Assembly: GCA_018389105.1 (NCBI GenBank)
Contig: JACATO010000052.1
Coordinates: 124,001-188,000, forward strand
DNA from: Nautilus pompilius
Taxonomy: Eukaryota; Mollusca; Cephalopoda; Nautilida; Nautilidae
Length of the DNA: 64,000 nucleotides
Direction of reading: 5' to 3'
In this document: one piece after another, positions 14,701-44,044 of the stretch
Numbering within the stretch: the stretch's first letter is position 1
Layout of the letters: each line of letters opens with the position of its first letter
The notes under the pieces: model-generated
The model's input: the letters and a program-made list of their open reading frames with translations, nothing else
What the model was told of the DNA's origin: nothing
The model's database searches: none
Translations under genes and position numbers: made by a program

Positions 14701-17700
14701 ATAATTTGATGATAGAGCCTTTTTCTAATTGCGCTATTTACCTACTCTTTGAATTTAGTATTTAAAGATCAAGGTACATAATTAATTTGTATAGTACATT
14801 ATCACCCCCACTTACAGAAAAAAAAACTTCATAAAGTTCATTAAAAACAAAATATTGTTCACTTCTCTGTTGCCCATTCTGTTAGCTGGTCTATCTATAC
14901 CTAGTGGTTTGTTGGGTTTTTTAAAATTCTTTTTACTAATTATTAAATTACCTGTTTAGAATGTGATAGTAAATAAGCAAATACAGTATATTAAAATTAT
15001 AGTTAATGAAAAAAGTAAAAAATACAAAAATGACAAAAAATTAAAACATTTAAATTACAAATTCTGAACTGTCAATAAGTTTAAGCATGATGTATTTAAA
15101 AAGAGGTCGGTATTTTAAAAAAAAACGTAAAAGAGGGATATCATACATAAAATTGATTCATTTTATAACAGTTTTTTTTCCTCTTTTTTTTTTAAAAACA
15201 ATGTAGGATTATTATCTTGAAGAAAGTTCATCTTTGCCAGATATACCATTTCAAGAATATAATGATGATTGGTTGGATCAAAAGTCTGAGATTTGGCTAC
15301 ATGAAAACCCTCTGGCTTTATGTCCTTCTCTGCATCTGCCTCCGCCACCCCGCCACCCACCGCCCCCTCCACCCCCACCCCCTCCAGACAGCCAGCCTAT
15401 ACCACCCCCTCCCCCACCACCCTTAGAACCTCCACCAGCTCCCCCTTTACCAGATGAGCCTTATCCAGAAGACACAGAGAAACCACCAGAACCTCCAGAT
15501 GTAGATGATGAGGAGGAGGAGAAACTTCTTCGAGCTCAGCTGCTTCAGTCTCTTGCTGTTCGGAGACAAGAGAACAAAGCTGCCCTTGAAGTAAGTTCTT
15601 ACATAGTTTATTGGTTATGTATTTTTTGCTGTATAAACAATAATTGTCTGTTGTTTTGAATTCATTAAGTTGTAACTCACTTAACTAATTTTGCTTGTCT
15701 GTCTTTGGGAAACTTAACACTCATGATGGTGTTATTTAGAAAAAAATTTTTATCTGATGGGAAGTTGTTCCAGTATAAAAGCTTTGTTTTTTCCTAAAAA
15801 AATTTTTTTTCTTACAAATTGCATGTCTGCCTTTTGAAAATCAGTTTATGAAAATGAGAGTACAAAATTTATTTGCTGGTATATATGATGTTTTTTTAAG
15901 GCTAAATCAAGCAGAGAAACTTCTCCATCATCTTCAAGAAGTCAGTCTCCACTTCAGAAATCGCTTCATCACGAAAAACAGAATAAACGTATCATCTGTA
16001 TGCCAAAGGTAAGATAACTATAGGAAATTTTATGACTGGAGTAAAAAAAAAAAAAAAAGTTCATTTGTACAACAAAAAGTTTCCAGCTTTACTGCCAAAA
16101 TTATAGAAGATAAACCATAGTACTGTACATCTATATTTGGTTTGGTAGGTATGTCAAATCTTTGGATAATTTAGAATACATTTAATAGTCATAAAAATAA
16201 ATATGAACTTGTGAGTATAGATTACTTAAGTCTTCTATAATTTGTCTGTGCCAGTTTGTTGAATGTTTTATCAGTTTTTATATCTGCTGGTCTGATGAAA
16301 TATAAAATGTATTTACTTTTTTAAAATTATTATTTAATACTTTTGGCCCATTACTTTCTGTTATGCATTAGCTTCTGAAAGCTGCTCATCCTTGGTACTG
16401 AAGTTCGTGGAGAATGTGGTGCATTGTTCTTCAACAAATTTTTTTATTATTCTTACTCCTGTCATGGGTTGGTACTGACTGAGTTTGCATGATGTTATTC
16501 ACACAACCTTTTGATAATAGTCTCGCACATTGACCACATGAACAAACACCCATTTATAATCTCATGGTAAAATATTTTACGCAGCAGCTCTCCTCAGCAT
16601 CTATACATCTATCTCGACACCTTGATGGGTTTCTATGTAAAATTGGGTATTCCATTATTTTAAGAGAGGCTTTTTAATAAGACGGCATTTAATGCCACTT
16701 GAAAGATTTTTTAACATCTTTCACTGTCAGTGTTCTAACTTATTCAGTGCTCGATATATATATATATATATTTTTTGAATAACAAATAACTAAAAGCCGC
16801 ATTTAGATTTGATTCTCCTGTTTCCAAATTTAAAAAAAAAAAATTTAACTAAATAACTTTTAGCTTCAGTTCATTTTTTTTTAGCTTGAAGTTTAATGGT
16901 AACCAAAATGAAATTTTAAATCTTGTCTGCTGCTGCTTTAACTTATATGAAGTATTTTTCTCAAGTTTAATGAAAGCTAATGTAAAATATCTCAACTTAA
17001 AATGTTCTTAGTTGTTTTTTTTTTTTTTTTAGATAAAATTCATTTAAAAAATTGGCATGCAGCTGGAGGTATAACTATTGATTTATCACAAGAAGTTAAA
17101 ATCTAGAAGGAAAGTTTAGATTGGGAAATTTTGGAATTATAGTTTGTTTTGTTTGTTTTATTCTAACACTAGTTTGGCTAAATATTTAGCAGTGTCTTGT
17201 TTTCTGATCATATTGAAACTTACAAAACTAAATTGTTTCCAGTTTTATTTGATACAAGCCCTGGCTGGTAGGTTTGTTTTTTCTATGACAAGTTTAAAAT
17301 ATATTTGATAATTGAGTGGATGAAACTAGCCATTGTATATTGTTTGACTAAAACTTTGCACCACTGTTTATTTGTTTAGCTTCCAAAGCATGCTCCAGTT
17401 GTTATAAATCTGGGAGAAGACTCATCAGATAGTGGAGCAGAAGGTGCAGGGTTTGAGCCTCAAGCATCACAAGAACCTCTGCTCAGTGAGCTGGACCAAT
17501 TTATTAAGGAAGCAAGGAAAGAAGCTGAGGTAATTTGGCTGCAGTCTTGTCTGTGCTATGCATTTGTCGGTGTCTTGTATGAAATGATATATACTATTTA
17601 TTGTTAATCCTTTCCAGAGCAGGCTAATCTGTATTTTACATGCTTAAAAGGACAACATTTCCAAGATGACTGTGCAAAATGCACCCAACTGATTAAAATT

Positions 17701-20700
17701 ATTTCAAAAACATGCTAAGATATGTAATGTAAAAACATGCTGAGATATGTAATGACTCAATTTAATCCAAATGAGAAGGAAATCAATTTATAGTGCAGAA
17801 AGCCAAAAACGTGATGTAAATCAATCACTTTCAGGAAGTGATCAGTCGATTTTTTGTTCACATGATGAAACATCTCACCCTGTACAGGAGAATGGTACAG
17901 AGCTGGCAATAGCACGTTAGGTCATTCCTCACCCCCATCCTTGCCAGCATGTGATGGCCGTGGTGGTTGTGGTCCATCTGACTGTCAATTTTTCTCTTGG
18001 TATGCTTCAGTTTTCTGGAGCAAAAGCCACACCTCACACCTCCCCATCAACATCCAGGCAGGAATCTCTTTGGCTGTAGTCACATCAAGTAAAGGTCTAA
18101 TTTTGAACAATTGGTGTCTGTTAAGATCATCAGGCAAGTGCCTGACTTTGTCAAAGAGATGCCAATACTAATTCATTTTCTGTAATCTCTTTAGTTTCAT
18201 GATTTTTGACCCCTTGCCACATTCATTCTGTCGTTCATATTCTAAAAATTGTTGATGGATGGAATGGAATGAAAGCCCATGGCAATGGTGTCCATCCAGG
18301 TGTTGTCTGGTGTGGCTGCCGCCTGCCTTTGTGCAGCATACCAGTTGTTTGTCTTTACCATGTGGTGAAAAAAAAAAAACTCCAGGATGAGTTAATGAGA
18401 AAACCACATGACTTAGTATTATTATGACGTTAATCTCCAGACCAACAGACTGAAAATGTTGGCACTTTGGCTGGAGACATCTACTTAGATAGTGCTGTGA
18501 ATGTTTTCTTAAGTTTACACAATTGGTACGTTATATTTTATTAGCACTGAAATGTGGTTGTACAACGATTAGCATTCTCTTTCTACTGCTATCACAGATT
18601 AATACCCAGAATTCAGATACTAATGCTGTAAATTTAAACAAGTTTTGAAAACTCTTTCTGCAGGTGAAGGCAGAAAAAGAGAAAAATATAACTGATCGAG
18701 CAAATCAGACAGATTGCTCTGTTCTTGTTAAAGAAGAAAAAAACATTCTGCAGAAATCTGATCCACAGATATTAGAACAGCAGTTGAGGATAATGGAAGA
18801 AAAGTATGTCAATCAAAGGTAACGTGTAAGCTTTCCTCTAAATTGTTTTTACTCAGTAGAATGAGTGGGGAAGAAACAAAAGTTGGTTTGTTTTTAAATT
18901 GCCTTTGATAAAAAAATAAATATATATTTAATTTACATAAAATCAAATGAAAAAATTCAGTCATTCATGGATATCTTATTAAACAATTTTAAAGAATTAA
19001 GATAATAAAATAAAATTATTTATAGAATTTTACTTTCCAGATGCATTTGTAAAATACCAAATTTTGTCTTGTGGAGACCTCAATTATTTCACTAATTTCC
19101 ACTTTTTACCTCTCTCCAACAGTCACCAGTATTTTGGGACTTGTTTGAATGAAAAAAAAATTTTTTTAAGGTATTCTTTAAAATATTCATCATCAGTTTA
19201 CTTAATCAGCTTGACATTTATTACAGTGGTTCCCAACCTTTTTGGACTCATGGACCTTTTTCTAATACTCAAAAGACCTGTGACTCCCTGCTACACTTCC
19301 ATAATTGAAATTTAAAACTACAAAAAAGTTTAATCAATACAAATTCGAATGAATATTATTGGAGAAAAATCAGTGTAAATGTTCCCTGAACTAAAAATCA
19401 ACAGTAACAATATATTGTATATTATATCAGAAAAAAGAATTTTAGTGATTTTTCAGGGAACAACATATGCACATATAGTAAATTCACAACAACTAAACAG
19501 AAATCTACTGGGATCAGTGAACTCTATCTCTGATCAGAACAGCTGTGTGGTGTGTCATGTTGGTGCCAAAGTTTGCCTAAAATCAAGCTGGCTAGTGTGT
19601 GTCTGGCCAAATTCACAGTCTAGTCCTTGTAGTGTGCTCTACCCCAGGTGTCGTGGTCCAAGTCTAGCTGCAGGCCCCAATGGCCAATGACATTAGCCAA
19701 TGGGGGTGCAGCTTGATTGAGTCAGTCCTACTGTGGTAACAGTTCGAGTTCCGGCCTTTATCGCCATCTATTGTCCATGTTTCTATGAGGGTGCCAGAGC
19801 AACAGAAAGCTGCGGAGATGCAAGTGTGTTACTGCAGAGGCCTGTGGTGGAGCCATAAGCGCCTGCCATGGGAGACAAGCCTTACCCCTTTGGTGCTCGG
19901 CCTCCCATCGGTGATAATACCGGCATATTGGACGCATGGTAATTTTTGTCTACTTTTTTCTGGGAAAAAAGTGCATCTCATAAGCTGGCAAACACGGAAC
20001 ATATAAACAAAACAAAAAAAATTGAAACTTCCAGGGTTTTGCAACCTACTGGTTGGGAACCACTGATTTATTATAAATGCACAGTAATAGGAAACAGAAT
20101 TATCTCCCTTAGATCGCTTACTAATGGGTAATCTGGGGTCAAGTGTTTTTTTGTTTTTACTGTTTGCATTGCATCATCAGTGTGCTAAAATTGCTGTTTG
20201 GGGTTTAAATGCATTGGATTTCACTTATTTCTATACAGATCAATAAATATAGTTATTTCTCTGTAATTAATCAAAATTAGCTCGATATTAATACTGTAAA
20301 GAATTTTATATAAAACATCTTAAAATTTGTATTTTTAATCTTTTACTTTTTTGCATTACTTTTCTTGCATTAAATAGTTATTCTGATTATGGTAGGTGGT
20401 ACACAAATATACCAAAAAAAAATGCAAACATTTAAAAAAACTTTTAATAAAAATCAAACCTGATCTTAACTGTAAACTTGATGCTACAATCTGATGATAT
20501 TGCCGCTTCTAAGGGAATTACAGCATCATTTCCATACAACATTGCATCGTTCTTCAACTTTTTCAGGCTGAACATACAAGGTTTTGTTAGTCTTATCTTG
20601 TACTGAAACTGACCAAACATCGAGTGGCACAGCGAACGTATCCCTTGTGGTGCTAATCCTGGTTTTAAAAATGTTAAGAGTTATTAAAATAAATTTTAAA

Positions 20701-23700
20701 ATTAACTTTTTCCACTGCATTTATTTTTTTAAAAATAAAAAATACAAAACTGTTTTCTTTCTATTGCAAGTACCAATTAATAAAATTAGTCATATAAAAT
20801 TTTAGTTTTAATTAAGATAGCATTTAATAACATCCATTTGTTTTTTTTTACCTAATTTATGCATCATTTTACATGCAAAGTTTAAGGAATTTTCTTTGAG
20901 CTCCCAGTTTCTCTTGGATGACCCTGATCCACCTCCATGGTGGTGCACTGACTCCTGCTTTTTTTGAATTGGTGGTACAAAAATAAAAAAAGGTTGGGAA
21001 AATCTGTTAAGCTGTTTCTTCTGAAATAATATCCATTTTTTTTTTTCAATCATGAAATAATGACATAAATTTATAATTGATATATTGTTTGCCATGCTCC
21101 ATTGTTTTGAGTTAAATTTATTCACTTTTGCAACGAAAATAACAGATAAACAATAAGATGTATGTTTGGTTTTTAATACTTGTTTGTACCAGTAGGGAGG
21201 GAAATACTAAGTGTTAATATTTGTATGGTAATGAATGCTTTAAGTTTCAAATTGTTTTTTCTGAAGTTTAAAACATTTGCTTGCTTTTTTTTTTTTCAGG
21301 AAGCAAATGTTAAAAGACCAAAGAATTTTGAAGGCATTGGTGCTACAAGCCTCCAAGTCTCTCACAAGTCTTAAAAGTGCTGAGCAGAAACTGGCAACAT
21401 TACACACACAGCTGAGACCAGCAGAAAAGTTGGTTATGGCAAACAAGCAACAGGTGGAAAAGGCAAAGACTCAGGTAACTCTTAGCAGCTAAATAATGAA
21501 GTGCTGTACACCCAACTGTTCCACCTTATGAAAGAAAGTGGTTAAAATTTCTTTCATGTAAGTCTGTTGCTTAGCATTTTATAGTTTTGGATGTCGGTAA
21601 TACATTTGAGTAATGGTTTCATTAAGGCAGATCATTGGAATTTTTTTAATGAAAAATCACAAAAAAAAATGTTGCAGTCTGGTGTTGTTGGTCTGTGTTA
21701 GTAAATATTTTTGACTAGACATAAAGTATCCAGTATAAGTACTTTATATTTGCTTGCTAATAATTTAAAATTGTCACAGGAGCCAAATTTATAGAGTGTA
21801 TGTGTTTTACTTTAGTTCAAATATTTTCTTTGTCTAATTTTTTTAGATTATTAAAACCAGTACTGATTAAAAATCTGAAATAAAATGCATAACTATAGTT
21901 TTTGTTAGTGCACAAGAAAAAGAATAGCAGCAAGTTTGCAATTGAGAAAAAAAATTTATATAAAAGCAAAAGTATTTCATGCAAAATTAATATTCTTGTG
22001 TAAAATGATTCTTCCTGTTGTGGTGACTTGCTGTTATTTTTTTCCCTAGATTCGTGTTGTAAAAACAAGACTGGTTAAAAAGGAACAGAATGTTGAAGCT
22101 TTTGAAAAACGCCTTCTGCAACTTGGCTTCCAGTTATATGGAGAGGTGTATAAACCAAAACTCTTGCTGTCAGACAGAGCTGGAAATATGAAAATGTTGC
22201 CTTTAACATGTCATAATGATGTAAGTTTTTTGTTGTTTGTTTTTTTTTAATACATGTTACAGGACACAGTAACCTTTTGGTTTTTTTTAAAAAATTTATT
22301 AATTTATGATTGTCCTTCATTTCATTTACTGAAAACTAGGTGTTTATATACAGGAATACATTCACTGATATAGTTCATCTGGACTATTATAAAATGTTAA
22401 CATTGTTAAGTGCATGTGTTAAGTAAATAACCACATCTTCTTGTCGCTTCCAAGAACATTTGTAAAATAGCTAAATTTTTAACTCTCAACATTATACTAT
22501 ATTTTTAGACCAAAAAAATGCTGATATATTGTTGATGAATAATTTAATTCAAAATTGTTAAAACAACAAAAAGAAATAAACAAAAATTTGATACCTTTTT
22601 ATAGTTTTTATTGCAAAGAATATTTAAGAATAACTAATTAGTTTTAAGGGTACAAATAAGAATTTCATTAAGTTGGTTAGGAGTGTAAAGCTTTACTAAA
22701 GTTGTACTAAATGCTTTCCATGCCACTATAAATATGAGTTGACAATGTTGCATTTAACAGGACCTTAGGCGCCAACTTATTTCTTGAAAATACTGTTAGA
22801 ATTTAGTACTGCTAATACATCTTGTCTGAAAGTTGCGATTTCATCTGCAGCTGGCTGCAAACTTTTAATAGCTGATTGAAGTGTCACCTAACATAAACCT
22901 CATATATATATATATATACAGCTCCATACAGAGAAACTTACTTACCTGGCATCCATTTTTCTGACATTCCGGGTTATTTGACTAGCCTCGATAAGTAATG
23001 CACACATGCATGCATGCATGAGAACACTGCAATGTGTATAAGATGCCATTCTGTTTCCATTTCAGCTAGAGGGAGTGGGCACCACATCCAGAACACATTT
23101 AAACTGTTTACAGTTTTACCAATGATCATGATGTTCCTGAACAGCTGAAGTAAAGGAAAATGGTAGCTGTATTCTGCAGAAACAAATTGGGGGCCCTGGA
23201 GAGATTGAATGATTTTACTTTATTTTAACTGTATTTTGATCTTTACTGCACAGACACCATGTTTCCAGACAAAAATGCTTATAATCATTTTTTTTTTAAG
23301 GTGGTGAGCATGGAGAAATGAGATTTTACTGTATGTATGTGTCTATATGTATGTATATATATATATAATATCTTGGCAAATTTATTTATTCTAAATTGAA
23401 TATTTGCAGATTAAACTTGGAAAAAAGAAACGACTTGTATTATCTCAAAAGCTAGGTAGTGGGTCACCCAATGCTAGAACCCAGGAAACAGTGCAATACA
23501 TATCTCAGGAAAAGTTACGGTTAGAGAGACTGCAGAAGGAATATGCTGAAAAGCTTCGTGTACTGCAGGAAGCAGCCACTGCCAAAGAACGAACTATTAT
23601 GCTCAGCAGCAAACCTAAATCTGTCCCTCGTTTAGAAAAGATTGATCTAGACACTGCAGAAGACTCTGATGGCAGCCAGTCAAAACGGGCTGTAAACAGG

Positions 23701-26700
23701 AGGCGGTCACTAATTGAAATAAACTCCAGCACAAAGCCAAATATTCAGCAAGAAAAGGATGCTGCTGGTCAATCTGGCCATCAAGCTAAAAGTGGACAAT
23801 TTGGAGACACTGCAACTATGCAGCAGCATTTCAAGATACCCAGTGGCCAGCAACTACAACATCTTAGTCAATTGCAGGTATTACCTAAAATAAATTTTTC
23901 TTTCTGTGCTCCACTTAGTATCTTCCTTCTCCCACAACAGTGATCTGAAAACAGGCTTTGCAGAAACCACAGTGCACGAGTTCTTACTGCAATTGAAACT
24001 ATTATGAGCATGTTGATTGGTATGAGTCTGTTGCATAGATAGCATCTATTTATTTACCAAATGAATTTTTCTTCCAAGCAGGCTATTAGTTATTTTTGGT
24101 GTATGCTTTAATAATACATTAATGTTATAGTAAAACTCTTGTCCTATTACTGTATTTTTTCTATCATGTATTGTAAATTTTCTTTAATGAGAAAATTATC
24201 TTTCTAGTAGTTTTTCTTAGGAATCTTATTTAAAATTCTAGATACTTTGGAAAGTCTCTTATTTTTTTAAAACATGTTTTGACAAATTTTTTTCTAATTT
24301 GGTAACACAATGTGATTTTATTTCAATAAGTTTAGTTTTTATCTAAATGCATGTTTATATTTTAGGAGGAAAAGGTCAAAAAAGTGTTAAAGACCTCATT
24401 AGATCCATCATCTTTTCAATATAGGTATAGCATACTGTCTCCACTGCCAGATAAGGTAAGTTCAGATCAGTTTTTGTTTGTAATATTTACAAAAATGAGT
24501 ATTTTACTTGTTTTACTCCATCATAAAGATCAAACAACAGAGATTAATTAGCTTGATGTGCAATGTGTTTTGTAGGTTCCATGGGCCTTGGATTTAATGT
24601 TGTCGGACTTGCATTTTTCCATAAAGTACTGGGGTTTTAATTTTATTGGAATCTAAACTGGTGTTTTATCAGAAGCAGCTGTTTGGTCTGACATAACTAG
24701 TCTGTAGTGGAAGATTGTTCCTTTAGTAGCCTAAAATATACTGAAGTGTTAATGCATATAGTAGAAAAAGATTCTTCACTTCTATTTTAGTTTCCTGGTT
24801 GAGTCTCCTTTATAATATTTCTAAAGTCCAGTTAGAGTATTGTGAAGCACTAAGCTTCTTTTTTGTTGTTGTTGTTGTTAGCATCTTGTGTTCAATACAC
24901 ATGAAATTAAACAAAAAATTAAAATTATATTGTAGATGGCAAGTTGGACTATCTATTCTAAAATATTTCAGAAAGCCTTAACTTTCATTAACCTAATTTA
25001 GAACAAGTTATAATTTTTTTTTTTGACATGTGTGTGTGTTTAGAATTTAAGCCTTAAGTAATAGATATACTAACATGTACCTGATCACAATTAGCTTTGG
25101 CCCTTTTTCATTTTTAGATACATGGATTAGAGGCTGATACAAAGGCGATTAGACCAGCTGAACAGTTTGTTCCACTCAAACCATACACAAGTCCATTACT
25201 ACATTTTAGGTCTTACAGGTAATTTTGTTTTTTTACATAATATTAATAACTTTTTCTTGTCAGGGCTTCAGTTAATTCTAAAAAGAAAATCATTTTAAAA
25301 AATGTATTTGATAACATTTTCATGTACTGTGCAGTACTTACTAGTTTCTGTTTTTATATGGTGTTTTTCCAATAGTATAAGATGTTGGAATTTACTCCAT
25401 TTGTTTCTTAGAGTAGAATACACATTTATCACCTATTACTTAATTAGACATTTTTTGTTTTTAACACAACACAAACCCAGTCCTAATTGATGAACGTTTA
25501 AGGATTGACAAGCAGCGTACCTTAGTTAATTTCTTATTGACCAGTTATATTAAAATACTACTATTTATGTATGATTTTGAATTATTAATTTATTTCAACA
25601 TTGCAATTTCAGAAGGAAAAAAAAAAATAACCAGAAATTGAATTTTATGATTCTTATTCTCTGGTAATTTTTAAATGTGCATCATTTGTTTTTGCACAAG
25701 CAGTATTTGCTTAGTACCTGCATTCAGTCAAGGACTTTTTTTTGCTTTCAAAACCGTATTTTTCAGGTTATAAGTTGGAGTATAAGTCGAATAGGTCAAC
25801 TTTCTCGTTTGCCAATCCTTTTCATTCACATATAAGTTGAAGTGGTGGAGAAGTCAATAGTACTTTTGTACAGTAATAACAGTATAAATTTTCTGTCAGG
25901 GTTATAAAACAGCGGTGTATATCGAATGTTAAAGGAACTTAATCCATATTTATTATATTGGTTACGTTAATGGCACTTTCTTCAATCTCATTTCATATGA
26001 ATTTACAAAAATGTCCAAGCTTTTCCTCAATATCTGCTGGTTGTTTTTGCACTGTGGTTGTGCGTCGTTATGCTAAGTCCTTTTCTTTTCATAAAACGAA
26101 AACGCCATGACGAATTCCCTTTAAAATTTGGTATTCCAAGTTCTTTGGCAACTTGTTGGGCTTTCATTCATAACTGGATTGTATTTAGTCCATGGTATGC
26201 AGCACGTTGTGTCAAAACAAAGTCTTCAAGCTGATCTCCAACATTGGTCCATCTAGCTTTGCAACCACAGTTTGCATTCTTGCTTTTTTCAGTCTGTCAT
26301 AATGAATCTTTCGCTTTTCACCGATTGCGAACACACTTCTCACTAACGCCATACTGCTGTTCTGCTGCCATATTTCCATCATTGTTTTCAGCAGAATCCA
26401 CCACTTCCAGTTTAAAAGAAAGCATATGCTTTCCTTTTCTTTATAGCAGGCATTTTTCCCCTAACACAATGATATCTGTGCCCCCTAAGCACTAAATAAA
26501 AGGGAGGTAACTGAATCTGAGTCAGCATGCACTCACACACATGCGTACAATCATACATAAATTTATCCGTGTTCCTGGTATCATGATTTCATCCATATAT
26601 AAGTCGGGGTAGAGTATAGTCAATGGTCAGACCCTTGCAGAAAAAAGTATTGAGTTATGCACCAAAAATGTGGTAATTGACGTTTTTGAACAAGAAATTG

Positions 26701-29700
26701 GAATTTAGTCTCTGTAGATTTCAAAATGTTTGAAATTGTTACACTTCCTGATCGTAAAAACATTGATATAAAATTCTGGTTACTGAAGCCACAGTTGACA
26801 TGCTTGGGATGTTACAATGCATATTGCACATACTGCTGCTATTTTTTTTTTTTTTGACAGAAAGTGGGGTCACATGATGCTACATTAGAGGACAGGATTT
26901 GGTTGGTGACAAGTTTGAAGTTATTTTCATTTCTACTTTGAATAATTTGTGAAGCTATAAAAAAATTTTTTTAAAAATAATTTTAATTAGAAGTTTTTTT
27001 AAAAAATATATTAAAAATTTTATGGAATCTACTGCTGCTTTGCATTTTCTTGTCAAATAAAAACTTCCTGTATTTTCTGAGTCAGGGGTGCAATAAAAGG
27101 GACTCTCATTAGTCATAATCTGCTGCATGGGTTCTGAAATTTACAATTTTTTTGAATGCCAGATAGCATCAACATGTCAAAATTCAATGACTGATTGCTG
27201 ACATTGCAGGATCTAAAACCCGCAGGATCTAACGCAACTATTTTATTCAAAGAAAATAACATATTGTGCCTGAAGTAAAAAAAAAAAAAAAAAAAAAAAG
27301 ATAAGATCATGGTAATTTTGCTTTTATAATTTCTGTCAAAATCTGATAAGCTGGTCATTTTCTGGAAATTTTTACTGAATTTATTCATTTTTACTTTATT
27401 GTATTTTCTTATTTTTTTAAAATTAGAATTATCTCTGTAGCACTTTAAAAAGAAATTATAATCCATTGACAAGGTTTTTAGTCAGGTTTTCACTTTTTCT
27501 TTATCTTCACTACACTAATATTAATTCAAGCAACAGCATTGACAGTAATTACTGTGGACTGAAGTTTCTTTTTCCACAGTTTTACATCTATATGTATTTT
27601 TGTTATGATGCTTGTTTCTTCACTTATTAGTTCATCATATAAATTTATATTTTGTTTATTTTTCTCTATCTAATACAGCTTGACAGTCCCTCACAGACTT
27701 CCAAAGGACCTAAAAGAAAGTTCAACAATAAAGCAGTAAAGCTGCTATGTTCAAATAAACAAAATGTTGGTGCACAAACTGATTTTTTTAAGACATTAAT
27801 CATAAAACTGACAAGTGTAACAAGTTTAAGTATCTGCATAATAGAATTCGAATAAAATACTGATTTAATCTCTCTCTTTGAAAGAGTAAAAATTATTTAA
27901 TTTAGAAAACTTCAAATATTAATTATATACATAGAAAATTTATCATTAAGAGTTTGATAAAAAATATATTTATAATTTTTATTGTTTCTTATGTTTTCTA
28001 TTTTTTAAAAATACTTTTACTTTTGGTTTTTGGTGAGTTTAATGATACATTTGAATTGTCAGTGGGATGAATTTAATAATGAGGAAATCAGTGAGGTGAT
28101 AGATTGCAACAGTACAGTATTTTGAACTGAAGCCCTGTTTTTATATGATGTGCTTTATTTTTTGTTTTTAATTATTCCATACTTAATGAAAGTTATAAAT
28201 CCTTCAGAGGTGTAATTTTTTAAATCTTGGCATTTGAGCTGTCTTATGTTTGAGAATATCCAATTTTCATAATTAAATGCTAGTTTGTTGAGATTCTTTT
28301 GGCTTCAACTTTTTCCCTGCTGAGGTTTTCGATGTCATTTCCATTAATGGATTCACTCCATTGACATGATTTGGAATTCCCCAGGAGCATTCACCAACAC
28401 TTAAACTAACAATATCTGGTGCTACTGACCAGCCATCTATCAAGTGTTATAAAAACTGTTAGATTGGTGATCTCTGACTTTGACAGGGAAATGGTTAATT
28501 GTAGCATCGCAAGCTCTAGGCATACAGATATCTTAAATGGTATGTAAATTCTTCCAATTTGTCAGATTTATGACTTAGTATATAGTCAGTTTTTTGTCAT
28601 GCCAAATAAAAATGCCCTCCTATCCTTCAAACCCAAAATATAATCCAAGTTGTTAAAGATTAGTAGGAACAGGCTCCTGAGCTGCAGCAGGTTTGGTCTG
28701 TTTTCTAAGTTAGTACAAGACAACTAGATCATTGTTTTCTACATAAATCACTTAGTAGCATCAGAATAGCTACAGGGGAGGAACTTCTATACCAACACAC
28801 TATTTTACAAAATTATCCAATTGAATGCCTATAATTATGCCAAAGATAAATGTAATAAATCTAGTATTTCCAATATAAATTTTTTATACAAATTCAATTT
28901 TTTTTTTTTTTTTGTTTTTTTTTTTTTTTTTTTTTTTACAGATTTAGTCCATTTTATAGAACAAAAGAAAAACATTGCCTTGTCGTCTGTGAGCTTTTCC
29001 CATAAGCTGAACCCAAAGAAAATTTTCTGCCGCTTTGATTTACAAGGAACATGCAATGATGAGCTATGCAAATGGTAAATGTTATCAAGATGCTAACTGC
29101 TTATGTTGTTTATAGAAGTGAGCTGATTGGTTCAGGCCTTCTCATTGCTCTTTGGAAAAGCCCTAACTAACTCCCTACCTCCAGTAAATGCACTAATTTC
29201 ATTTTTCCTGGTGACACAACATTCATTTAAATGCTTGACCTTTTCATTCATTTTCAGTAAACATTACAAAAACATTTACTTTCAGTTTTAGAATAAGTCC
29301 TCACTAAATACAAACAAAACATAAGATTTCTAGTTAAAATATTTATTTTGTATAAATTAGATTTTAATTGAGGAATAATTCTCATTACTGAGAGATGTAA
29401 ATGACTTGTTTAAATAAGTGATGATGATAATGACAGTATAGATTTGGTTTTTGTGATTTTTTTTTAAATGGCAAGAAAAATTGAAATTTATTTTTAAGAA
29501 GTTTCTGAAGATTATTTTTTTGTTAAAAGTTAAAAGCCATTACAATTTTAAAGCATCAGTAAGGAATAAAATGATTTAAATTTGCGAGTGTGTGTTTGTG
29601 TGCATAAAATGAACTATCTTCAGATAACATTCAAAACCAACATTCCTGAGAAAAACACTGGTATAGTGTAGTACTAGCTGTTGGATATCCTAATCTGATG

Positions 29701-32700
29701 GCTGAAAATTTTTTTAATGATGTATATAAAATTCTATTTTTTTTGTATATTAACTTTATTGCTATATACTGGGTGGACTAGAATTTTAATGAGTTTCAAA
29801 TCAGTTATAATAACCACATGAAATTTACATTAAAACTAGATATTACTCTATTCTATGAAAATTTTCTGATGCTGTACCAACAAGTTATAGAATGTGATTC
29901 AGTAATTATTTATTTAAAATGTTTTGCCCTTAGTAGTTTTCATTTTATTATTTAACTAAATATAGGCATTTAAGATGTTGAAACATTTTTAACTTGAATT
30001 TATTTTTCTGTGATGGATATGTACATGGAATTGCATCAAGGATTTGTGTAAGACATTTTCATGTTGGCTTCTCAGATCTTTGTATTACCAGAGACTACTG
30101 AAACAGCAAATGTCTTTAATATTATCATTGTTCCAGGCAACATACCAAACACTACATCCTTACACAGAAAGAACTTCTCCAGGATATAGTTTCATATTCT
30201 CCTGGCTTAGCTGGCATAAAAGAAAATGCATCTGGTGGTGATCCATCGAGCCAAATTGGTGAGTGAATAAATTTTAAAATTCAACTAAACATTTGTTTTG
30301 GAAAATAAAAAGTTTTAAAACTGAATTGACTTGTTTCTTTTCTAACTGCTTTTTTTTTTTTTTAATTTAATAAATTCAATCTGTTTTAATTTTCCAGAGC
30401 AGTATGTAGATAATGTGCTGAAACAAAATCAGGGACGAATGACCAGTGATGAACTTTGCTTATTGCTTGTCAGTCGTGTCAACGAACATGAAGATCATGG
30501 TAAGTATTATACAATGTTGTGGTTGAAATAATGTTCCTCTAGCCATCAGAGTATTTCCATTTGCTATTTTAACATATATTTATTAGTGCCCTCTCTCTGA
30601 CTATGAAAAACTTTAGTGAGATTGATGAAATAGCCTATTCAAGTTTTGGGAAAACTAATTTTGGTAGTGTGCTTGTGTTGCATTTCGAGAGAAAATATTT
30701 TTGTAAAGATTCAGATATTTAAAAAATAATAGCAATGTTTTCTTAAAGCTTTGAATTTAGTCTTAACTGAATGTTACTAGCTTTTGTTTTAACAGTAGAT
30801 TCTAATTAAATTATTAAAAAACATTTTATTTAATCCATTAATTTTGGAAGTGTTTCGGGAGAGAGTTAACAAAAATGGGATTTTTAGTAGGTTTTTGATG
30901 GACTAATTTGCTACTTAAAAATTTGAGATTTTTTTATGTTGCACAGATTTTGGTGCTGAATATGTTGAATACAAAAATACTGAACCTAATTTGCTGGATT
31001 CTGGAAACTGACGACAAAATTTTGTCTTAGTTTAATGCTACTGTGTAGTTGTTTATTGCCACATGTTATACATGGTCAGTTTTGATAAACTCTGAATGAA
31101 TTTTCTCTATATATTTTAACTACTTGTAGCCTCACCATTTACCACCACCTTTAGACCTAGAAGTTGGAAGCCTTCACAGGAAGAAAAATCAAGTGATACA
31201 CAAGTGTCTATATCTGATCACAACACCAATAAAAGTAAAGTGAGGTTCTTGAAGTTAGGTAAGTCATTTTATCTCAACGTGTTTTGGTTTAATTAATGAA
31301 CGCCTCATTTGTCCTTTAAATTGATTTGTTTTTGATTAGATCTAGATTTTATAAACAGTTCCTTGCAACAAACATTATTTAGTAGTGCTACAGCATTCCA
31401 TTATTATTCTTTCACTTTTGACTAAAAAATGCAGAGTATTGACATTTAAATCATAGACCTGTAACATGAATATGCTTCGTGCAAAGTCCCTTCTGTAAAT
31501 GCTCTGCAATGTTATTCAATACTTTCATTTATACAATAGATAATACATTTAGAAAGTTGCTGGTCCACATCACTTTCTCTGGCTATTTATTTTGCTTTTT
31601 CTTATTAAAGTGATTTTACTAGTGTGAACCACATGTATTACCCAGTTAAAATTTTTGCTATGTGATGCAATCCAAAAGTGAATCCTTCCTCCTAATGTTG
31701 TGGAGATCCTGATTGTTCATACCTCAGATTTCTCATTTAGCTGGTCAAAGACTGATACAGAAACATTGAGAAATGTGTCAGATGGAGAGAAACAACAGTG
31801 GCAAGAAGGTTGTGAAGTTTCCAGCCATCTGCAGTTGATAAACATGCTGGCATTTTTGCATTCTGTTGGGTTGGCCTGAAGAGTGATGATGCAAAGCCAT
31901 TGGATTTCTTCTGTGAGCTGGTACCAGAAGTTATCTTCCACTATCTGACTTAGGAGACTAACTGTTATGCCATACAGATCCTGGAAAAAGTTGACACCAC
32001 CTGGGAAGAGTTGAAAACTTTCTTGGTAGTGAAGATAATTATGAGTCACCATTCTGTCTTGTTCATTGAGAATATTTGAAGTGAGAACAACATCCTTAGT
32101 ATTGCAATGGTGTCAAAGGTAATGACACTAATGAGATTCATGAAACTACTACTACATCAAACCAATCAAGTGGGGCCTGAAAGTGTGGGCAAAAAATGAT
32201 GCTCATAATGGCTACATGCTGAACTTCAGCAGGTGTTAGATACAATTGTGAGGGGGGGCCTTTTTGAACACTTGCAGAAGTAAGAACACTTCTACTTTGG
32301 CAACTTCGGCTATTTTGAATTGTTGGAAAGGTTGGAGATGGGAAGGTTTCGTGTCTAGTTTGTTGATCACAAGAACAGCAGGGATTTGCCTGTTGACTTC
32401 AACAAGCACCAGCTACAACAAGGAGAGCAAGATCTAGTAGAAGGGTGATTCCTGGCCATTGAGTGGCATAATAAGCGGGTTGTCATGCTTCTAAATACCA
32501 ACTGCAACCCTTAGTCACCATCCAAAGGTGATTCAAAAATACTGCTACATCGTTTGAAATCCCCTGTTTGTGAAGCTCTATAAACAGTACGTGTGTGGGG
32601 TATATCTTGCAGATCAGCATAAGTTGTATCCTCTTGGAGGGTATGAAGTATTGGATGTACTTAGCATGGTTTGTGTTCAACACAGCTATTGCCAATACTT

Positions 32701-35700
32701 TTTTTTTTTACTGATCTCTGAATCTCCTCAAAGCTAGATGTTGATCAAAGTGAGGAGGAGCAAGTGCTGCACCCATAAAGACTTTAAGTTGGATGTTGAA
32801 GTGGTTTGATGCTCCAGGAAACAAAAGGTAACCAAGAGGCAGAGTGACAGCTGGATGGAGACCTGTGTGCTATGCTTCAAGAATAGTCAGCAGTGGAAAC
32901 CACTGCTGCTGCCAGCTTTGCACCTTTGTAAGCAGACTGGGATGTGTTTTACTGACCATGTGAATGGACAGTGACGGATTTCACTGTTGTTGACTTCCAG
33001 ACACATTTTCTTTTTCACTAGGATTACTGAACTGTGTTGTAGGCCATTTGTGCTAGTTGAGTCGTTTCATAACTTTTTTTTTTTTGTATCATTTAATCAA
33101 GTATGTGCATTTTAAGCAGCCTTATATATTGTCTGAACTTTTGTGCATGAAATATTGCATTTCCTGAATGGGAAAGTTAAAGCAACAAACCATAACTTCC
33201 ATTTTGCTCATTACATGATATCGTGTAACAACATAATTTTATCACTGTTTTCAGCTAAAATTGGGTATGGTAAAAAAGTATTGGTGGAGGTACTGAAATA
33301 TAGTTGTAACCATTATATTTCATAATCATTTGAGCAAACTATGAGCTGGCCGAGTAGGGTTTTTTGTACTTGTCATGAGTATCTCGACGACAAAACAGTT
33401 TTTGTTGCTTTAAACATGGTGCATGAAAAATGAGTCAGAAAGTACAAAAAAAAACATCAGGTTAAATTTATGTTGCTGTGACCGACAATTTGCTGCACTA
33501 AGTTTCTATGGCACTTTTTCACTAATAGTGTGTGAAATTATTGATCTTTCAAAGCTTGTAGAGCCAAGTCAATGCCTGTCATAATTTTGCCACCTGTTGT
33601 TATAGCATGTTAGTCTTTATTTTCTGCGACAAACTAACAGTTGTCATATTCTTTGTTAGTACTTGGTTGAGCCATCTTTTGAATCATACTAAGGTTCCTC
33701 CATATTCATGTAAAAGCTTTCTTAATTATATCTTATTGCTGGGATGTGAGCAAGTTGTTCTCAGTTCATGAGATCCAAGTGCTGCTTCATATTCATATTA
33801 GGCTTTGTGGTACCCAGGAAAGAAGTTGAATCTTTTGATTCTTTTTTTCAGGATGTGATATATAATGATATTCTCTTGATGAATATGGTCTCAAATCTCA
33901 TTATTCCTTCTTAGTACAATGTACAAGATGTTTTTTAAATGGCAATTCGCCCAAAAAAATTGAGTTGCTTTTCAACAAACCATTCGTCTTTCCAACAAGC
34001 CAGATTGCAGCCTATATCATGACACTGCCTTCTTGTTTGACCATAGGCTAAAGGCTTTGAATTTGAAGATCTTTTGTTAGGTCTTCTCTAAACTTGGGTA
34101 CAGCAACCTCCAAACGTGACTTGCTGCTAATACTTGAGGATCTTCCCAGACATTCTCTCACCAGACCTTTTTTGAAGTGTTTTATTGGACAAGTTGGCTT
34201 TCTTATATTCTGCACAGCTGTGTAGCTAAGTTGGTGGTTGATTTTTGTTGTTGTTTTTCTATGAGTGATATCAGCAAGAGTTTTGTAAGTACAGAATGGG
34301 CAACCAATGACACCTTGTTGACATGTCATTGTTGAAGGCCTTCTGGTTCCCTTTGTCACATCAGGATCATTTACTTTGGTGAACTTCACAATAATATTTT
34401 CAAAGATCCACAAGAAATGTCATGACTCTGGCCATACACTGAATGGCCTATAATACAGTCTCAGGTAAATGGAGAAATACTTAGTGGTTTATCTGTTTTC
34501 ATTATCATAAAAGTGCATTGGTTATCTGCCTACCTGAGTATCCATCATACATATGTATATAATCACACAAAAAATGTTTCATTTATAGGATTGACAATGT
34601 AAAATCATTGGGTAATGCTCAGGTTTTGTTTGCATTGGCTCAGATATTCTTTCTCTTTACAGAAAGTGAGCAACTATCATTTTTTCCGGAATGGGAAAAC
34701 ACAATAGATGAGCAGGATGTGCGCTATTTCACATCAAATATCCAGGACATGGAGTCTGCTGTTCTTGAAAGTCCCCACAATGAACAACTTTGGCTGAAAT
34801 TAGCATACAAGAAATTCAACAGTTTAAAAAGGTTATTAATTTTACATCAGTAATTTAATTGGAAATTTTATTTGTTTAATAACTCACGTAGTACAAAACT
34901 GCATGAGGATAAGTTCAGGGCAAAAGTAAAAAAAAAAAAAAAAGTTTGAATAATAATATATTATTTCAATTTATTTCAGAAAACAGTCAAGAAAAGTATT
35001 TACCTAGCATGCTTGCTCCAAAAATATTAATAAAAACCTTAAAATGAGTGTTGTTTTTTTTTTTGTTTTTTTTACCTAGCCTTACAATTTAAAATGTTAT
35101 AGTTTTTAATTTTGAAGATAAAAATGGTTGTTTTCTCACAATAGTAGTATGATGTATTATAAGATCAATGGAAAGAATCTTATGATTATGTAGCGTGAAA
35201 TGCATTTATATTTGTAAACAGACTGGGGTGGGTAAGATTTAAATACAGCCTTTGTTCACTTCCAGTTTTACTGTAGTCGTCATTCCGTGTTGAGAAAAAA
35301 AATTAAGGAGAAATTTTAATTAATTTGGATGGTCCCACCATGTGGCATAAATTTAAAGGAAGACAAAAAAAAATGAGGTAGGAAGCCAAAGATTATTGTG
35401 ACCTATGTTACGTATCAGACTCCATCTCTGACCCAGTAGTGTTCATGGCTTTAGCTAGCACTTCATTGGAGCTTCCTACTAAAACAGCAAAACTAACAGC
35501 AAGATTACTGAAGAAAAGTAGATCACATTATTGCAGAATCTAATGATGCAGGAAAAAAGATCTGTGAATTTACATTTTTTATAGTATGTTATTAACTGGG
35601 ACTTTATTTTCACTCTGAAAAGGATTGAATGCTTGTTGAATTATGATCTTTAATTGGTATCTTAGCTAAAGCTAAATTATATTGCAATTATTGCCATATC

Positions 35701-38700
35701 CAGAGCACCTACTTCAGCAGCTCCAGGCTGGAGGGCTGTCATTTAACTAAGAAACCTTTTAATATCAATAAATGGGTTGTTTGTGAGCAGAGAGGTTTGA
35801 ATTGATGGAGAGTTTAAATAAATTTTGTGCTATATTGAATGTAGAGGGATATATATATATATAACGCAAAAGTAACACAGCATTTGGTGTGCATTTTCTG
35901 AAACTGACAAATGCACAAAACTGCTGCAGATATCATAGTTTTATGAAGACATTTTCATTGCTGATTTAAACGGCAGTCAGTTAATGACATTGAAATGACA
36001 CAAGATTTAACTTGGCAAAAACATAGCTTTACCTTCAGTTATGGCCTGGGGATTAGTTATATTTTCTAACTAGACTTGATCTTGATTATGCTGGTTGGCA
36101 AAAAGCTGACTAAATTACTGCATTGACCTCAGTATGACAAAACCTTGCATGGTTCTTCATCAGCCATGGAACTTGAAGAAAGCCAGAATGATGTGGATGT
36201 GGTCAGTAGAAAAATGAAGATTTAGATACATTTTGGAATCCCCATCAAGCAAGTTTTGTATGTGCATCCAAGAGACCCAGATTTATATAAAAATGAAAAT
36301 TTAATAATAGAATATGTAAATAGTATTCAGAAAAGTGTTTTCTGGCTTGGAAAAAAAAACTGAGTATCCAAATGAATGGCCTTGCAAAATCTAGAATGAA
36401 AAGATGGTAACTTTATTATAGAAATGCAGTAAAAAAAAATAATGGCTGTGGTATGAAGAAATTTCATAGCATGGGTCTAGAAGTGCAACACCAGAACCAA
36501 TGTGGAACTGGTGCTACCTAAAAGAAGCAAAAGGACACTGAAGAAATAGAAGAGAGAAAAAAACAGGCCTTCCAAAGAAGATAGCAGAAAACTAATTCTC
36601 CCTTTTCTTTTTAGAAACTTACAGCTGAAATCTTGCAATAGAACAGAGAGAGAAATTGTGCATGTTACTTAAAAAACACTAGAAGCTGGTATCTTAAGCT
36701 GCCAATGAATTTTAAAAGGCGTAGAATCAACACTATGTGAAGATCTGGCTTGATGCAAAAAAAAAAAAATCAGATTTTGTAACTTCAGTGGGTTGGGTGT
36801 GCTAAGGAACTACAAATATGTCAAGACAAAAGCAAAAGAAAAAAAAAAGATGCTGTTTTCACTGACTGACTGTGTTCACAAGTAAAACAAGACTGAAAAA
36901 TGTTTTCAAAAGATTTTTCTGAAACTTGCCTGATGCTAAAAACAAAGAACACGTAAAAAAATTTTTGCAATTCTTTGTTTGTTTGTTTTACCTTTGCATA
37001 ATAAAGATGGATAAACTACACAGATTTTTTGTTTTAAAGTTGTATCAAAATTATGTAATTTAAGACCATTTTGTTTTCTGTATGTAATAATACTAAAAAA
37101 AACGTTTTAGTCATTGTAAAAACCTTTTAATGGTTGATGTACCTATATTTTTTTTTATATTGAATATTATAATATAGATGCGCTTGTTTCCTTATTTTTA
37201 ATCATTCATCCTGATTGTCCAGAATGTAAAATTTTGAATATCTTATTTGAAGGGGAATGTTAAGTAAAATATGTGGGAAGAGTATCCTGAGTTTGTGTAA
37301 TATTTAATAACATGTTGATTTTAGATTTCATAGAGATGAAATAAATTGTTTGTTTGCAAATTTTTAAAATTTCATTTAAATGCAGTTTTTAAATTTTGGA
37401 TGTGTAAAAATGATCAGCCTCAGAAAGTCTGTTATATTTTGTACATTTTTTCATTCTGTTTAACTAGTTTTTCGTTAATAAAAAGAAGCATTTGCATGCC
37501 TCCGAATCCTGCTGATGGTTTCATATGTATTATTTTTGCAGTGATGGTGAGACATGCCTTAATCATGCATTGAATGTGCTGGCCCGTGGCCTTGAAGCTA
37601 ACAAGGAGAGTACAGATCTCTGGCTACATTATTTGCAACTATACAAACGGCACAAAGACAGTCAAAAGGATCTGTACAACATGTGTCAGACAGGTTTACA
37701 GCATGCTCCCAGTTATGATATGTGGTGGCAGGTATGTAGATGAGAACCAATTGAAACCTTGTTTGCCATCTTATAGGTTTGTTCAAATATAACTCTCTTG
37801 AAGTTGTACCTAACACTATATATATGATTTTTTTTAAATATAGTTTTACTTATTTAATTGCTAAATAAAATATTAACTTCAACACGAAGCTATGCAAAAC
37901 AGCTTTTTCCTAGACTAAATCTGAACCTATATTTATATTTCAGTATTTGAGTGCTGCACCAAACTATACTGAAAAAAATGAGATCTGTGATAAGATCTTG
38001 GCATGGTTGGTTGGACAGCCCACCGCTGAACATCTTTCTCACCAGTTAACTGAGATTGTTTTGTACAAAGTTGCCTTCAGTGTGATAACAGGAAGATACA
38101 AGACTGGCTGCACTTTTTTACAGGTAAATGCTGCACTTTATCTAACAAAAAAAAATATATTTAAAGCAGCTTACATGAAAAACATTTTTGTTGATTGATA
38201 AATTATAAGAGAAGAAAGCTCAACGGTTCACTTTGTATCGTGCCAATCTTTAGCCAATTTTGATGTATTGATTATGTTGTTAGTAATTTCCTAACATTTT
38301 TTCTCTTGAAATTTGAAAATGTTAACATTATTTAATAGCCACAAAAGGACATTTTAACAGATTATTCTTTCCTTTTTTGGTCATTTTAGTTCAAAAGTAT
38401 TTCCTAAAATCCATTAGAGAAGAAAAACGGAGGCATTTTTAAGAATTGCTCTGAAATGTAATTTACTGGAAACTACAGCTGTTCTTCTGTTATTTGATAA
38501 CATTGCACAAGAATGTATAAATACTTTTTGAAATATAATTGAAGCTTAAATTACAAAAATAACTTATTAGATAAAACTAAACTCAAATATATAAAACATT
38601 GTTTAATGTTGTGAAGTTATAATGAAAGGTGATGAACCTCTGGTATGTAGACATTCCGTGTAGAAATTTGGATGAAAAACTAGGCAAGATATAAAATAAC

Positions 38701-40969
38701 ATGTGGTTCTGGGTATACTTCGAAGTTTGTATTGAGTGTCATTACATGGCTTTTGCACAAACAGTTAATAAAAGTTTTTCTAAAGCGGTTCAACAAAGAT
38801 GTTAAAAAGAAGGGTGGGGGTACAGGTTGTCTTAAAAAGAGCATATTGATTTATGACTTGATTTGTTTTCTCTCTCAGGATAGTATTTCAGTATTCTAGA
38901 TAGCCCACCAGTTTTTTTTTCTTTTTTTTACATCTCTGCAAACAAGTCTGCGGCTTATATCAAAGCACTTAGCACAGCTGATCAAAGAAAAATGAACAAG
39001 TTTGAGAGGAGCATTGTAGACCTGCTTTGTTTTGCTTTGTTCATAGCTCAGCAAGAGACGGTAGGATGTGATACAGCAGAATTCATCCACTTTATATCAT
39101 CGATGCTCAGCCAGTTGGTGGGCTGGCTCTCCTATGCAATAAGTCACTTGCCCGGTGGAGAAGAAAGTACATAATGAGAGTAATTTGTAGTTGAACAAGA
39201 TTTTACAGTTGATAGATTAAGCAGTAGGGTGGCACAGTGGTTCTTTGTTAGTTGGGATTATTCAATTAATTAAAAGATATGGCCTGTGGCCATGCACTAA
39301 ACAGCATAATATCTTCAGCTCCTGTACTTGGGAAGTTTTTTTTTTTTTTAACTGCACCAAAAATCTATATTTATGTATATATTTCATTTAAACCTGAAAA
39401 TGTTGTTTCATTGGAGCTAGCAATATTATTTTAGATCCCATAATGTTTGATACTAAAATAAAGTACATTATAATGTTTTTTTGTTTTGTCTTTTTCCAGA
39501 AGTTAGAAAGTTTGATCAAATTCTTCTTAAAAAAAGATAAAACTCACTTTTCACACTATAATTGCAGAATACAATTTTGCAAATTATTTTTGCATCTGTA
39601 TTATCTTTAGAAAAAAGTTGTTAATGAGAGATCTGTCATCCATCCATAGTCTATTTCTCCTTACCACTATCTCTCTCTCCTAAGGAAATTTGAAGGAAAG
39701 TGTTGTAATCTTATAAAAAGTATTGATAACCAAGTGTATTTCAGGGTTTATTTTGATTTTTATAGTAAACCAGGCAGCCAGGTGTGGGAGATCACTTTCG
39801 TGTTTTGTTGCCAGTTTTTTTGTACATGGATGAACATTAAGTTAATGTTCTTGTTGACTCAGTTATTTAAAAAAATTATCATTGGTATGTCTTTTGACAT
39901 ATGTTAATCCATGCAGAATAATATGAAAATATCTTGTTGATAAATGCTGTTACAAAATCCCAGCTGAATTTAATGTCTGGAGGCTAGAAGTTTTTGCTTT
40001 GTTTTTAATAAAAAAATATGCTTTTTTATTTTTTTTTTCTATGTAGCAGTTTGTGTTTTTTTTGGAAGATGGGAAAAAAGAAAGACATGCACTTTCAGTA
40101 TTATCCAGAGACTTCTCTTATAAATTGCAGTGTAATCAACTCTGACAGAAATTGATTTTTACCTCTATTTCCAAACCAATTTTTAAAAAGTCTGAAAAGA
40201 TTTTTAATGTATTGTTCTGAATGACAAATATAAAATTTTAATTTTACCAAATTAGACTCGGATGAATTTGTCTGTCGTGGCTACAGGATTCATAACATTA
40301 ACTTTTGTCAACTGCAAGAATGGAAATTCTCAACGATTTTCTGTGGTTTAATGAAAATCAGTTGTACTTTGATTTTTAGAGATTTTTTTTTAAACAAATA
40401 CTTGGATTCTGCCATTTTTTTAACTTTTTGTTCCTGGTTCTATGCTGATGGGTAATTGATCAATTTTTAGAATGGGATGATGCCAATTCGCCATAACTTC
40501 TACTGCTGACCATTTTGCCAGCGATGCGCGTACTTCTGTTGTATTGGTACTTAATTCTAATCTTGCCAATGTTAATCTATAAATTGGAGAAAACTAATGA
40601 AAATATTTCATATGTTGAAACAGTTGAGGAGACTTGCTGACCTATTAATTTAGTATGAGATTCTCTTAATGTTAAAACCAGGCAGTGACACCGCATGTGA
40701 TTTTTTTTTTTTTTTAAACCCCCTCAGCATCCACACATGTGATGTGTCACTCACTACCTGCTGTAAATGATTTTTATTCTGATTCATTGGACTGACATGC
40801 AGATATTTAAAAAAACAGGTCACATCTTAAGAAAATAGGTGTAACTTATGACCTTTTTTGGGGGGTAGGGGGTGGTGTGGTGTAATTGTTATGGCCTTTA
40901 GTTGATATGTTACATTAGAAGTAATCTTCCTCCTCCACAGTCGACCATCTCTGATGCAATTAATTTTAT

Positions 40970-41005
<36 letters not shown>

Positions 41006-44000
41006 GACAGGCAGTAAGCAATCTGTTATTTTTAATACATAAAGGGTGACCTGTAAGTTCCTTCACTCCTACTTTATACACATCCAGTGGATTATGTGGG
41101 CATCTTAGTTATTGGTGCACCTTGAGACATTCTCCTAAGCTGGGCTGTATTGTTATGACACATTCACCTTTATGTAGCTCCACAGTGGTTAGATATGGAC
41201 TTTATGGATGCTACTTTAGTGGTGCTAATGATATATCAGATCCTCAGTCTATCCACCAGTTCAGAAAGGTGTCATTTAATCCTTTCCCCAGCTGGGAAAA
41301 CTGGCTGAGTGAGCACTGGTGAGTAATTTAGCAATCACTTTAGCTTGTATCACACACTGGTCCACATTATCATTTTCTCTGTATATTATATATATATATA
41401 TAGAGAGAGAGAGAGTTTTGTTTTCTTGTGAAACTGACTTATGTGACCAAGTTGGATTTATCTAGTGCGTTATCTACCTACATGATGAAATCTGACACTG
41501 AATCCTTCTGGTGATATGGAAGTCTCAAGTATTCATCTCTTGGATCGCTCATCATTTAGTTGGTCAGACAATGATGGAGAGACATTGGATGGAGAGAGTG
41601 ATAACAAGTTTGTCATCTGCAGCTGATCAACAGTGCCCACATTTTTCTCAATCTGTCAACTTGAAGATTTATGTCCCTAATGATCCAGCCCAGTAGATTT
41701 CTTCATGAGTTGATACCAGAAGAGTTCTTCCACCACATGGCTAAGGAAACTAACTGCTACATTGGACAGACCTTGAGGGAGGCAGGCAGAGCTGACAATA
41801 CCTGGACAGACCACCACTACCAGAGAGATGAGAGCTTTTCCTGGCAGTAAATATCATCCTGGTTGGGTTGCCATTCTACAGCATCCATTGAGGATTTTGA
41901 AGAATGATAGACTTAGTGTTAGAAGTAATGACATCGGGGAGATTGAAGAAATTGAATCAGTATTGACACATCTGTGACAACAATCGGGTTATCTAGCTTT
42001 ACATTTTTGAGTTTCTGCACTATAGATCAAATTTTTTCTTTTATTTTCTGGACACCATGTTTTTTGGCATATATGCAAATAGGTTAATTTTCCCATTTTT
42101 CTTTTCTTTATTCATAGATAAGTTGATTTGTAGTATAACAGAAGTCTAGATCAACTGTGGTGGTTAGCCAAATTTTCAACCTGTCAGAACATTGTGTCAA
42201 ATCATCCTTGACCATATCACATTGCTGTCTATGGTACTTCCAGGCTTGTGAATATTAGTGAGCTGTTTATGCATATCGTTGAACTATTTTGTGGGCCAAT
42301 CTTTTGGATAAATGGGGTATTTTCAACTGTTGTTATCAGTCCTGGTATTGAAAGTCTGGTGACTATTTCTAGTCTCTGCATGACATCAGTGATCATCAGG
42401 TGATCCCATGTCATTTGCGTTCTCTTGAATTGCCTTTTTTAAAAAGCCAAATATGTCAGTTTTATCTATATTCAACATTTATTTAATTTTGAAATATTAC
42501 AGCACAATAAAATTCAGAAATTCATCTTCAGCTTAGTCTCAAGTTATGTGACAATTGGAGTTCACAACTACTGGAAGGTCAAAAGTTTGGCTGTTCTCTG
42601 ATTGTATAACACTACACACCTTCCGATTGGGAAACCACCATGATGAATACTGTATACCAGTGAATAAAGATGAATGTAAAGACCAACAGTAAGGCAGAAA
42701 ATGATTTTATTTCTCAAATTTTCCTATTATATATATGAAACACTATATCAAATTTAAACAAACAATTCCATAAAACTGGCTTAATCAGCTCTGGTAATTA
42801 TATTTACTTAAATTAGTTTTGTTTACACTGCATCATAATAAGAGTTTGGTTATGAATAAAAGCAGATGTTAATGCTAAACTGATTGGCAGAAATTTAATT
42901 TTTGAAAGAACTAATTATCGAGCACTGTCTCATAACACATTAAATCTGGTTACAGTTCACTGCCCCTCAATCGTTCAGCATATGAGAAACTGCCAAATTT
43001 TTCATCTTTATCTGAATGGAAGAGCAGCAAGCTCTGTGGTCATACCAGGTGAGATGTTATCATTCTCAGCCTTCATGTCATTGCCTCCCTCGAGCTTTAC
43101 TGGCCTGCTGGTGATCTCTGCTTTAAGAAAGCCATTCACAAAGACCAACTGAGGTGCACTGTTCCATGCATCCTTAATCCATTGTGCAACCTCAACATAG
43201 GATGCATACTGCATACATCCCTTGGTGAAACTTTTCTGGGTTCAGCCTTGAAATGACTATTAATAGAAATGCCCAGTGGCTGCACAGTTTAATCTCTCCC
43301 CCCCCCCCAGGTATGATGCCTAACAACTTCTGGTAGTTTTCACTTTAGCCTTAGTCTAATCACTTAATGGGTGTGTGTAGAATCTGTGATAAGCATTGAT
43401 TTCTTGATGAGGAAAAATTTACCAGACTGATGCATCCCATTATCTTATTGTCCATTTAAAATCATCACTGTGGCAACTTCTCACCATCAGCAAAACAACC
43501 ACAGACTTTGACCAATGCTCCTAAATGTAACAGTCTCTTCTTTGGTCTCAACAGTTTATTTCATTGGGATGTTAACAGCACTTTATCCATATTGATCACA
43601 TTCAAATGTTCCTCCTGGATCTTTGTCTGCACAAACTCTTAGAAATTGTCTTAACTTCTCCTGTCCACATGAACTTGAAGCAACATGATGAATCACCTCT
43701 GAAACTGTCAACTTCCAAATTAGTGTGGTTTGTTTGGTCTTTGGTCTCAGCTGTGCAGCACCAAGTGTTGGATTAGTACATATTCATCCAACTTATTGAG
43801 TTGCAGCTGCGATTTTCCTTCTTAGTTTTCTTTGTAGTTCATACACCAGTCCCTAAAACATTTGTTGATATTGTATTTCCTGTGCTTGGCCATATTACCA
43901 CTATTTTCTTCAGCGAACTTAACCTTCAGTTTAAAAGCTGTCATGTACAATTGCATGACTTTACAGGAGAAATTTTGGGATGAGGCAGAGGATTTGTTGT

Positions 44001-44012
44001 GGGTATTTATAT

Positions 44013-44044
<32 letters not shown>

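Follow-up and report, generated by a model that had tools for sequence, protein, structure and literature searches.

A one-base frame break before the zinc finger of a cephalopod-like ZFC3H1 gene, most probably an assembly slip

ZFC3H1 is described as a core MTR4 partner in the PAXT connection, which directs the exosome to polyadenylated RNA in the nucleus (PMC7049725). Among the matches listed in our database search, its relatives occur across molluscs and vertebrates. The known proteins and the gene in the window (the whole stretch of 64,000 nucleotides analyzed here) have in common a start motif of the KEEGELSDDE type, a proline-rich and acidic middle, an RFSPYYRTKE segment, a C-x7-C-x4-C-x3-H finger (PF10650), and a C-terminal repeat region. 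The window protein is 49% identical to P0001 (876 aligned columns) and 48% to Octopus (851 columns); it differs from the known proteins by a surplus base before the finger, so that the frame is broken as assembled.

As in a ZFC3H1 orthologue, all C-x7-C-x4-C-x3-H ligands are present and PF10650 is matched above its cut-off. In a tree of 14 rows, the window is sister to Octopus, Argonauta, P0001, and P0002 (support 100/99); the nautiloids are the sole surviving sisters of the coleoids, which makes Nautilus the likely source of the DNA and a mollusc class outside the tree a less likely one. P0001 and P0002 cluster with octopods and probably represent coleoid transcripts. A scan for same-species sequence in the contig collection, which consists of bacteria and archaea and where little was expected, found no relative; a shorter query matched only a Pecten fragment; and a PDB search with the joined HAT pieces gave weak matches only (best E 0.039).

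A human ZFC3H1 protein and four mollusc proteins from the database search, P0001, Octopus P0003, Argonauta P0004, and Gigantopelta P0006, were each aligned separately to the window with a frameshift penalty of 30, the molluscs also with a penalty of 18. All five match colinearly over the full length, from start to stop, and define the following extent:

4390..60098, forward strand: whole ZFC3H1 coding span (spliced alignments)
30137..60098, forward strand: 18 downstream exons with the HAT repeat region, 781 codons with an open frame as far as the natural stop

Upstream of 17380, conservation is weak and the exon model rough. Zero-length exons at 43049-44422 were dropped by hand from the automatic models before counting; 12534-12535 and three pieces lying in 17948-18364 were removed likewise, from the human model alone. 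The model contains a GC-AG intron at 48484 (CAG/GCAAGT). At the left end of the window, positions 2-286 hold a 95-codon open frame without a Pfam match, perhaps a piece of another gene.

The break lies in one exon of this gene, for which the relevant features are:

25118..25218, forward strand: preceding exon, ending in ...SPLLHFRSY plus AG (spliced alignments)
28942..29074, forward strand: ZFC3H1 exon of 133 nt that carries the frame break, with phase 2 at either end (sequence, spliced alignments)
28968..28972, forward strand: five-A run, the best site of the surplus base (RTKEN in cephalopod relatives, break calls)
29003..29005, forward strand: TAA reached by the assembled frame (read from the sequence)
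29028..29074, forward strand: first part of the zinc finger with three Cys, C-x7-C-x4-C, in the +1 frame (Pfam, frame reading, alignments)
30137..30258, forward strand: next exon, which opens with the finger His and stays in frame (spliced alignments)

As read from the sequence, the preceding exon ends with ...TCT TAC AG/GTAATT at 25218, carrying two bases over, and the acceptor TTTTTTACAG finishes at 28941. The exon itself ends with TG/GTAAAT, and the following one starts with G CAA CAT at 30137. Hence, the exon is one base over (133 - 1 - 2 = 130), 132 nt being expected from the flanking phases. RFSPFYRTKE stands in the spliced frame and NIALSSVSFSHKLNPKKIFCRFDLQGTCNDELCK one base further on; the finger, NIALSSVSFSHKLNPKKIFC, sits right behind RFSPFYRTKE in the next frame. 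As assembled, the exon translates to RFSPFYRTKEKHCLVVCELFP followed by the TAA, and the finger is not in frame with the N-terminal part of the protein. The finger Cys codons begin at 29028, 29052, and 29067, while the His is in the next exon; the piece behind the break matches PF10650 (zf-C3H1) with 33.3 bits at a cut-off of 20.9. Splice scores, built on general consensus frequencies, are high for the acceptor at 28942 (13.4) and 2.2 for the donor ATG/GTAAAT. A one-base break ahead of the finger had been claimed in the first-pass annotation, and the phases, the TAA, and the alignments with all five queries bear this out; its gene name, phases, finger with Cys spacings of 8 and 5, and the alternative it posed between an assembly insertion and a real frameshift were likewise right.

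At penalty 30, all five query proteins call a one-base break at 28963-28972: at 28972 for human, at 28969 for P0001, P0003, and P0004, and at 28963 for P0006. P0001 calls an additional break at 4629, in exon 1. At penalty 18, the break in exon 28942-29074 is called by 4/4 mollusc proteins; extra calls by single queries (10013, 4683, 4518, 4661, 13346, 13428, and 15240) are in no case common to queries. Of 24 planted insertions, the aligner called 16, hence, where an exon is weakly conserved, a small break could escape. If frameshifts are forbidden, the best model takes a 5-nt exon, 28691-28695, and lacks the S, P, and R residues of the conserved RFSP..R.K; it scores lower than the one-break model after penalty 30, by 25 for P0001 and by 19 for Octopus. 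The frame is broken at this place, in a gene that otherwise looks intact and matches its family on both sides of the break.

Downstream of the break, all phases are consistent across the 18 exons, and there is neither a stop nor another frame break, at the aligner sensitivity given above. Invariant columns were defined from 13 relatives chosen among 120 listed (the best 120 of 186 found). The window keeps 53/56 of them downstream, 20/20 upstream (from 17380), and 11/11 in the exon itself after read-through, a loss of 3/87 in total. Over the downstream part, the window is identical to Gigantopelta at 311/768 positions, P0001 at 291/760, and Octopus at 277/762; with Mytilus, the values are 324/764, 316/759, and 304/761, respectively. 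As the identity of the window to these outgroups is not below that of the coleoids, change has not been faster beyond the break. A neutral simulation with 2000 runs per divergence level (0.12 indels per substitution assumed) puts the probability that the downstream part stays free of stops and frameshifts and retains every splice dinucleotide at 0.126 for 0.5% divergence and 0.017 for 1%. Given the 781 open codons, the 53/56 invariant residues, and this simulation, ZFC3H1 was intact and under selection until very recently, or is intact still.

Exon 1 aside, there is no sign of relaxed constraint in the gene. Exon 1 (4390-4880) has an apparent +1 frame change between MADKK...KEEGEISDDEE and GGGYWSPPPP...AWQDVRRSCSTISPKSHF, which reflects either a weakly delimited intron of 91-103 nt (from 4493) or a further break of one base. 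The best-fitting donor of this exon, at 4880, is weak (GCT/GTATCC, -10.3).

The segment at the break is gapless end to end in 120/121 relatives, the remaining one being a partial Pecten protein. When each of the 133 bases of the exon was removed in turn and the result scored against the human piece, 61 removals left an open frame; the scores are 174 for the A run and up to 181 elsewhere, and judged by the human sequence alone, the A run does not stand out. With two bases lost in place of one surplus base, the score is at most 168 (gapped). The mollusc proteins are more telling: P0001–P0004, including Octopus and Argonauta, read RTKEN, and this is the reading of the window if the five-A run is one too long. 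N at this position is seen in 6/120 relatives, P0001–P0006, which are molluscs or group with molluscs, and RTKEK in 76 + 28 of the 120. The A run is favored as the surplus site because the cephalopod relatives read RTKEN; the stronger claim, that a spare base could lie only there, does not hold against the human protein, for which other positions score equally or higher.

Most probably, the break is an assembly error. A length error of the assembled sequence would then fall in the A run 28968-28972, and a T tract about 30 bases upstream of this run may hinder both long and short reads:

28898..28937, forward strand: tract of 16 T, G, and 23 T upstream of the acceptor, ending 4 bases before the exon; probably hard to read or polish

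Other long runs in the window are A23 at 27277 and A20 at 45555. Five A make a short run, and accurate modern reads rarely miscall such runs, which counts against an error of this kind. We infer that the surplus base is absent from the DNA of the animal; its exon is probably one base shorter, the protein would run through RTKEN into the finger, and the window would hold a working ZFC3H1 of a cephalopod-like mollusc. If exon 1 does hold a second break, this fits an error-prone assembly but also a decaying gene. The published Nautilus pompilius genome is described as a hybrid assembly of PacBio RS II (112.5x) and Illumina (81.8x) reads with Pilon polishing in a paper that also describes RNA-seq data for the species (PMC8257504), and residual homopolymer-length errors and frameshifts are reported in long-read assemblies of small genomes (PMC8812927, PMC12007338).

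The fate of the transcript bears on the alternatives. The TAA at 29003-29005 lies 69 nt upstream of the exon end at 29074, with 18 exons to follow; nonsense-mediated decay generally acts on stops more than about 50–55 nt before the last exon junction. Therefore, the plain transcript as assembled should be degraded instead of yielding a stable short protein, and the truncated protein proposed earlier is not the likely outcome.

The main rival, which we consider unlikely, is a real and very recent one-base insertion allele, most likely heterozygous, whose message would stop at 29003 and be cleared by nonsense-mediated decay while the other allele supplies ZFC3H1. The sequence as given does carry the surplus base, a short A run is also a natural site of replication slips, and a recent origin would leave the rest of the gene intact, as observed; against this, loss alleles should be rare for a core MTR4 partner (PMC7049725) that is found across molluscs and vertebrates. 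The evidence favors an assembly error over a real allele, a choice left open in the first-pass annotation.

Much less probable still is a real break that the cell bypasses, either by skipping exon 28942-29074 or by using an acceptor within it:

28992..28993, forward strand: in-exon AG (acceptor 28994), restores the finger frame with five A, loses 17 residues (score -4.1 vs 13.4)

Both routes give an open frame. Skipping links two phase-2 junctions, so that frame and repeats are preserved, at the cost of 44 residues and three finger Cys, hence, the loss of all HAT repeats, as claimed before, is not forced. From 28600 up to the first Cys of the finger there are 27 AGs, of which three (28781, 28865, and 28994) open the finger frame, as does one (25190) of 12 GT/GC sites over 25130-25300; acceptors 28781 and 28865 read the T tract as poly-Phe. 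Thus, it is not the case that every acceptor and donor leaves the break, and a candidate acceptor retaining the finger with five A does exist, at 28994, albeit with loss of conserved residues. What does stand is that none of the 27 acceptors or 12 donors, nor the frameshift-free alignment with its 5-nt exon, keeps both RFSPFYRTKE and the finger, and splicing escapes were rejected on these grounds. Acceptor 28994 is weak, not impossible: its score is just under -3.9, the lowest of 25 modeled acceptors from 18664 on, yet within the range of all modeled acceptors, since two in the rougher upstream model score -6.1 and -6.3. However, the main acceptor at 28942 would win with its 13.4; the residues dropped via 28994 include RFSP and R.K, invariant in 13 relatives; and the segment is neither missing nor gapped in any of the 120 relatives having it.

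Two further routes were considered and rejected. For programmed frameshifting, inspection by eye showed no canonical site in the proper frame, and in the relatives a single frame runs through. A-to-I RNA editing, which occurs in coleoids, leaves the length unchanged; it could create a new AG, and nothing supports that.

The least probable explanation, a very improbable one, is a dying copy, either a pseudogene or one member of a paralogue pair, in which exon 1 carries another break. The possible +1 frame change in exon 1 speaks for it, though this may be a small intron; against it, introns are kept, phases are consistent, 8 spliced alignments show no in-frame stop, and all but 3/87 invariant columns are retained.

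If the surplus base is an error, the matter is one of annotation only: gene callers would split ZFC3H1 or leave the exon out, and a reader could wrongly report the finger as lost. If it is real, the window would hold an allele that loses a core factor of nuclear RNA decay, or would offer a way to test the need for the finger. That the break is both real and fixed, leaving the lineage with a ZFC3H1 without the three finger cysteines, with a shortened lead-in (28994), or with a translational frame shift, is very improbable; in that case, PAXT would function in the absence of the conserved finger or of the segment leading to it. A slip in sequencing or assembly, rather than damage to the gene itself, is the most probable origin of the surplus base; this is an ordinary matter, and nothing new on ZFC3H1 function follows from the frame break.

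Two known systems resemble this locus. Natural frameshift alleles removed by nonsense-mediated decay are alike in having a stop well before the exon end, here by 69 nt, with many exons downstream; the present case differs in being known from the assembled sequence alone. Homopolymer indel errors of long-read assemblies differ from it in that the run here is only five long and, again, is judged from the assembly itself; they are alike in the single base, the A run, the adjoining long T tract, and a gene otherwise intact.
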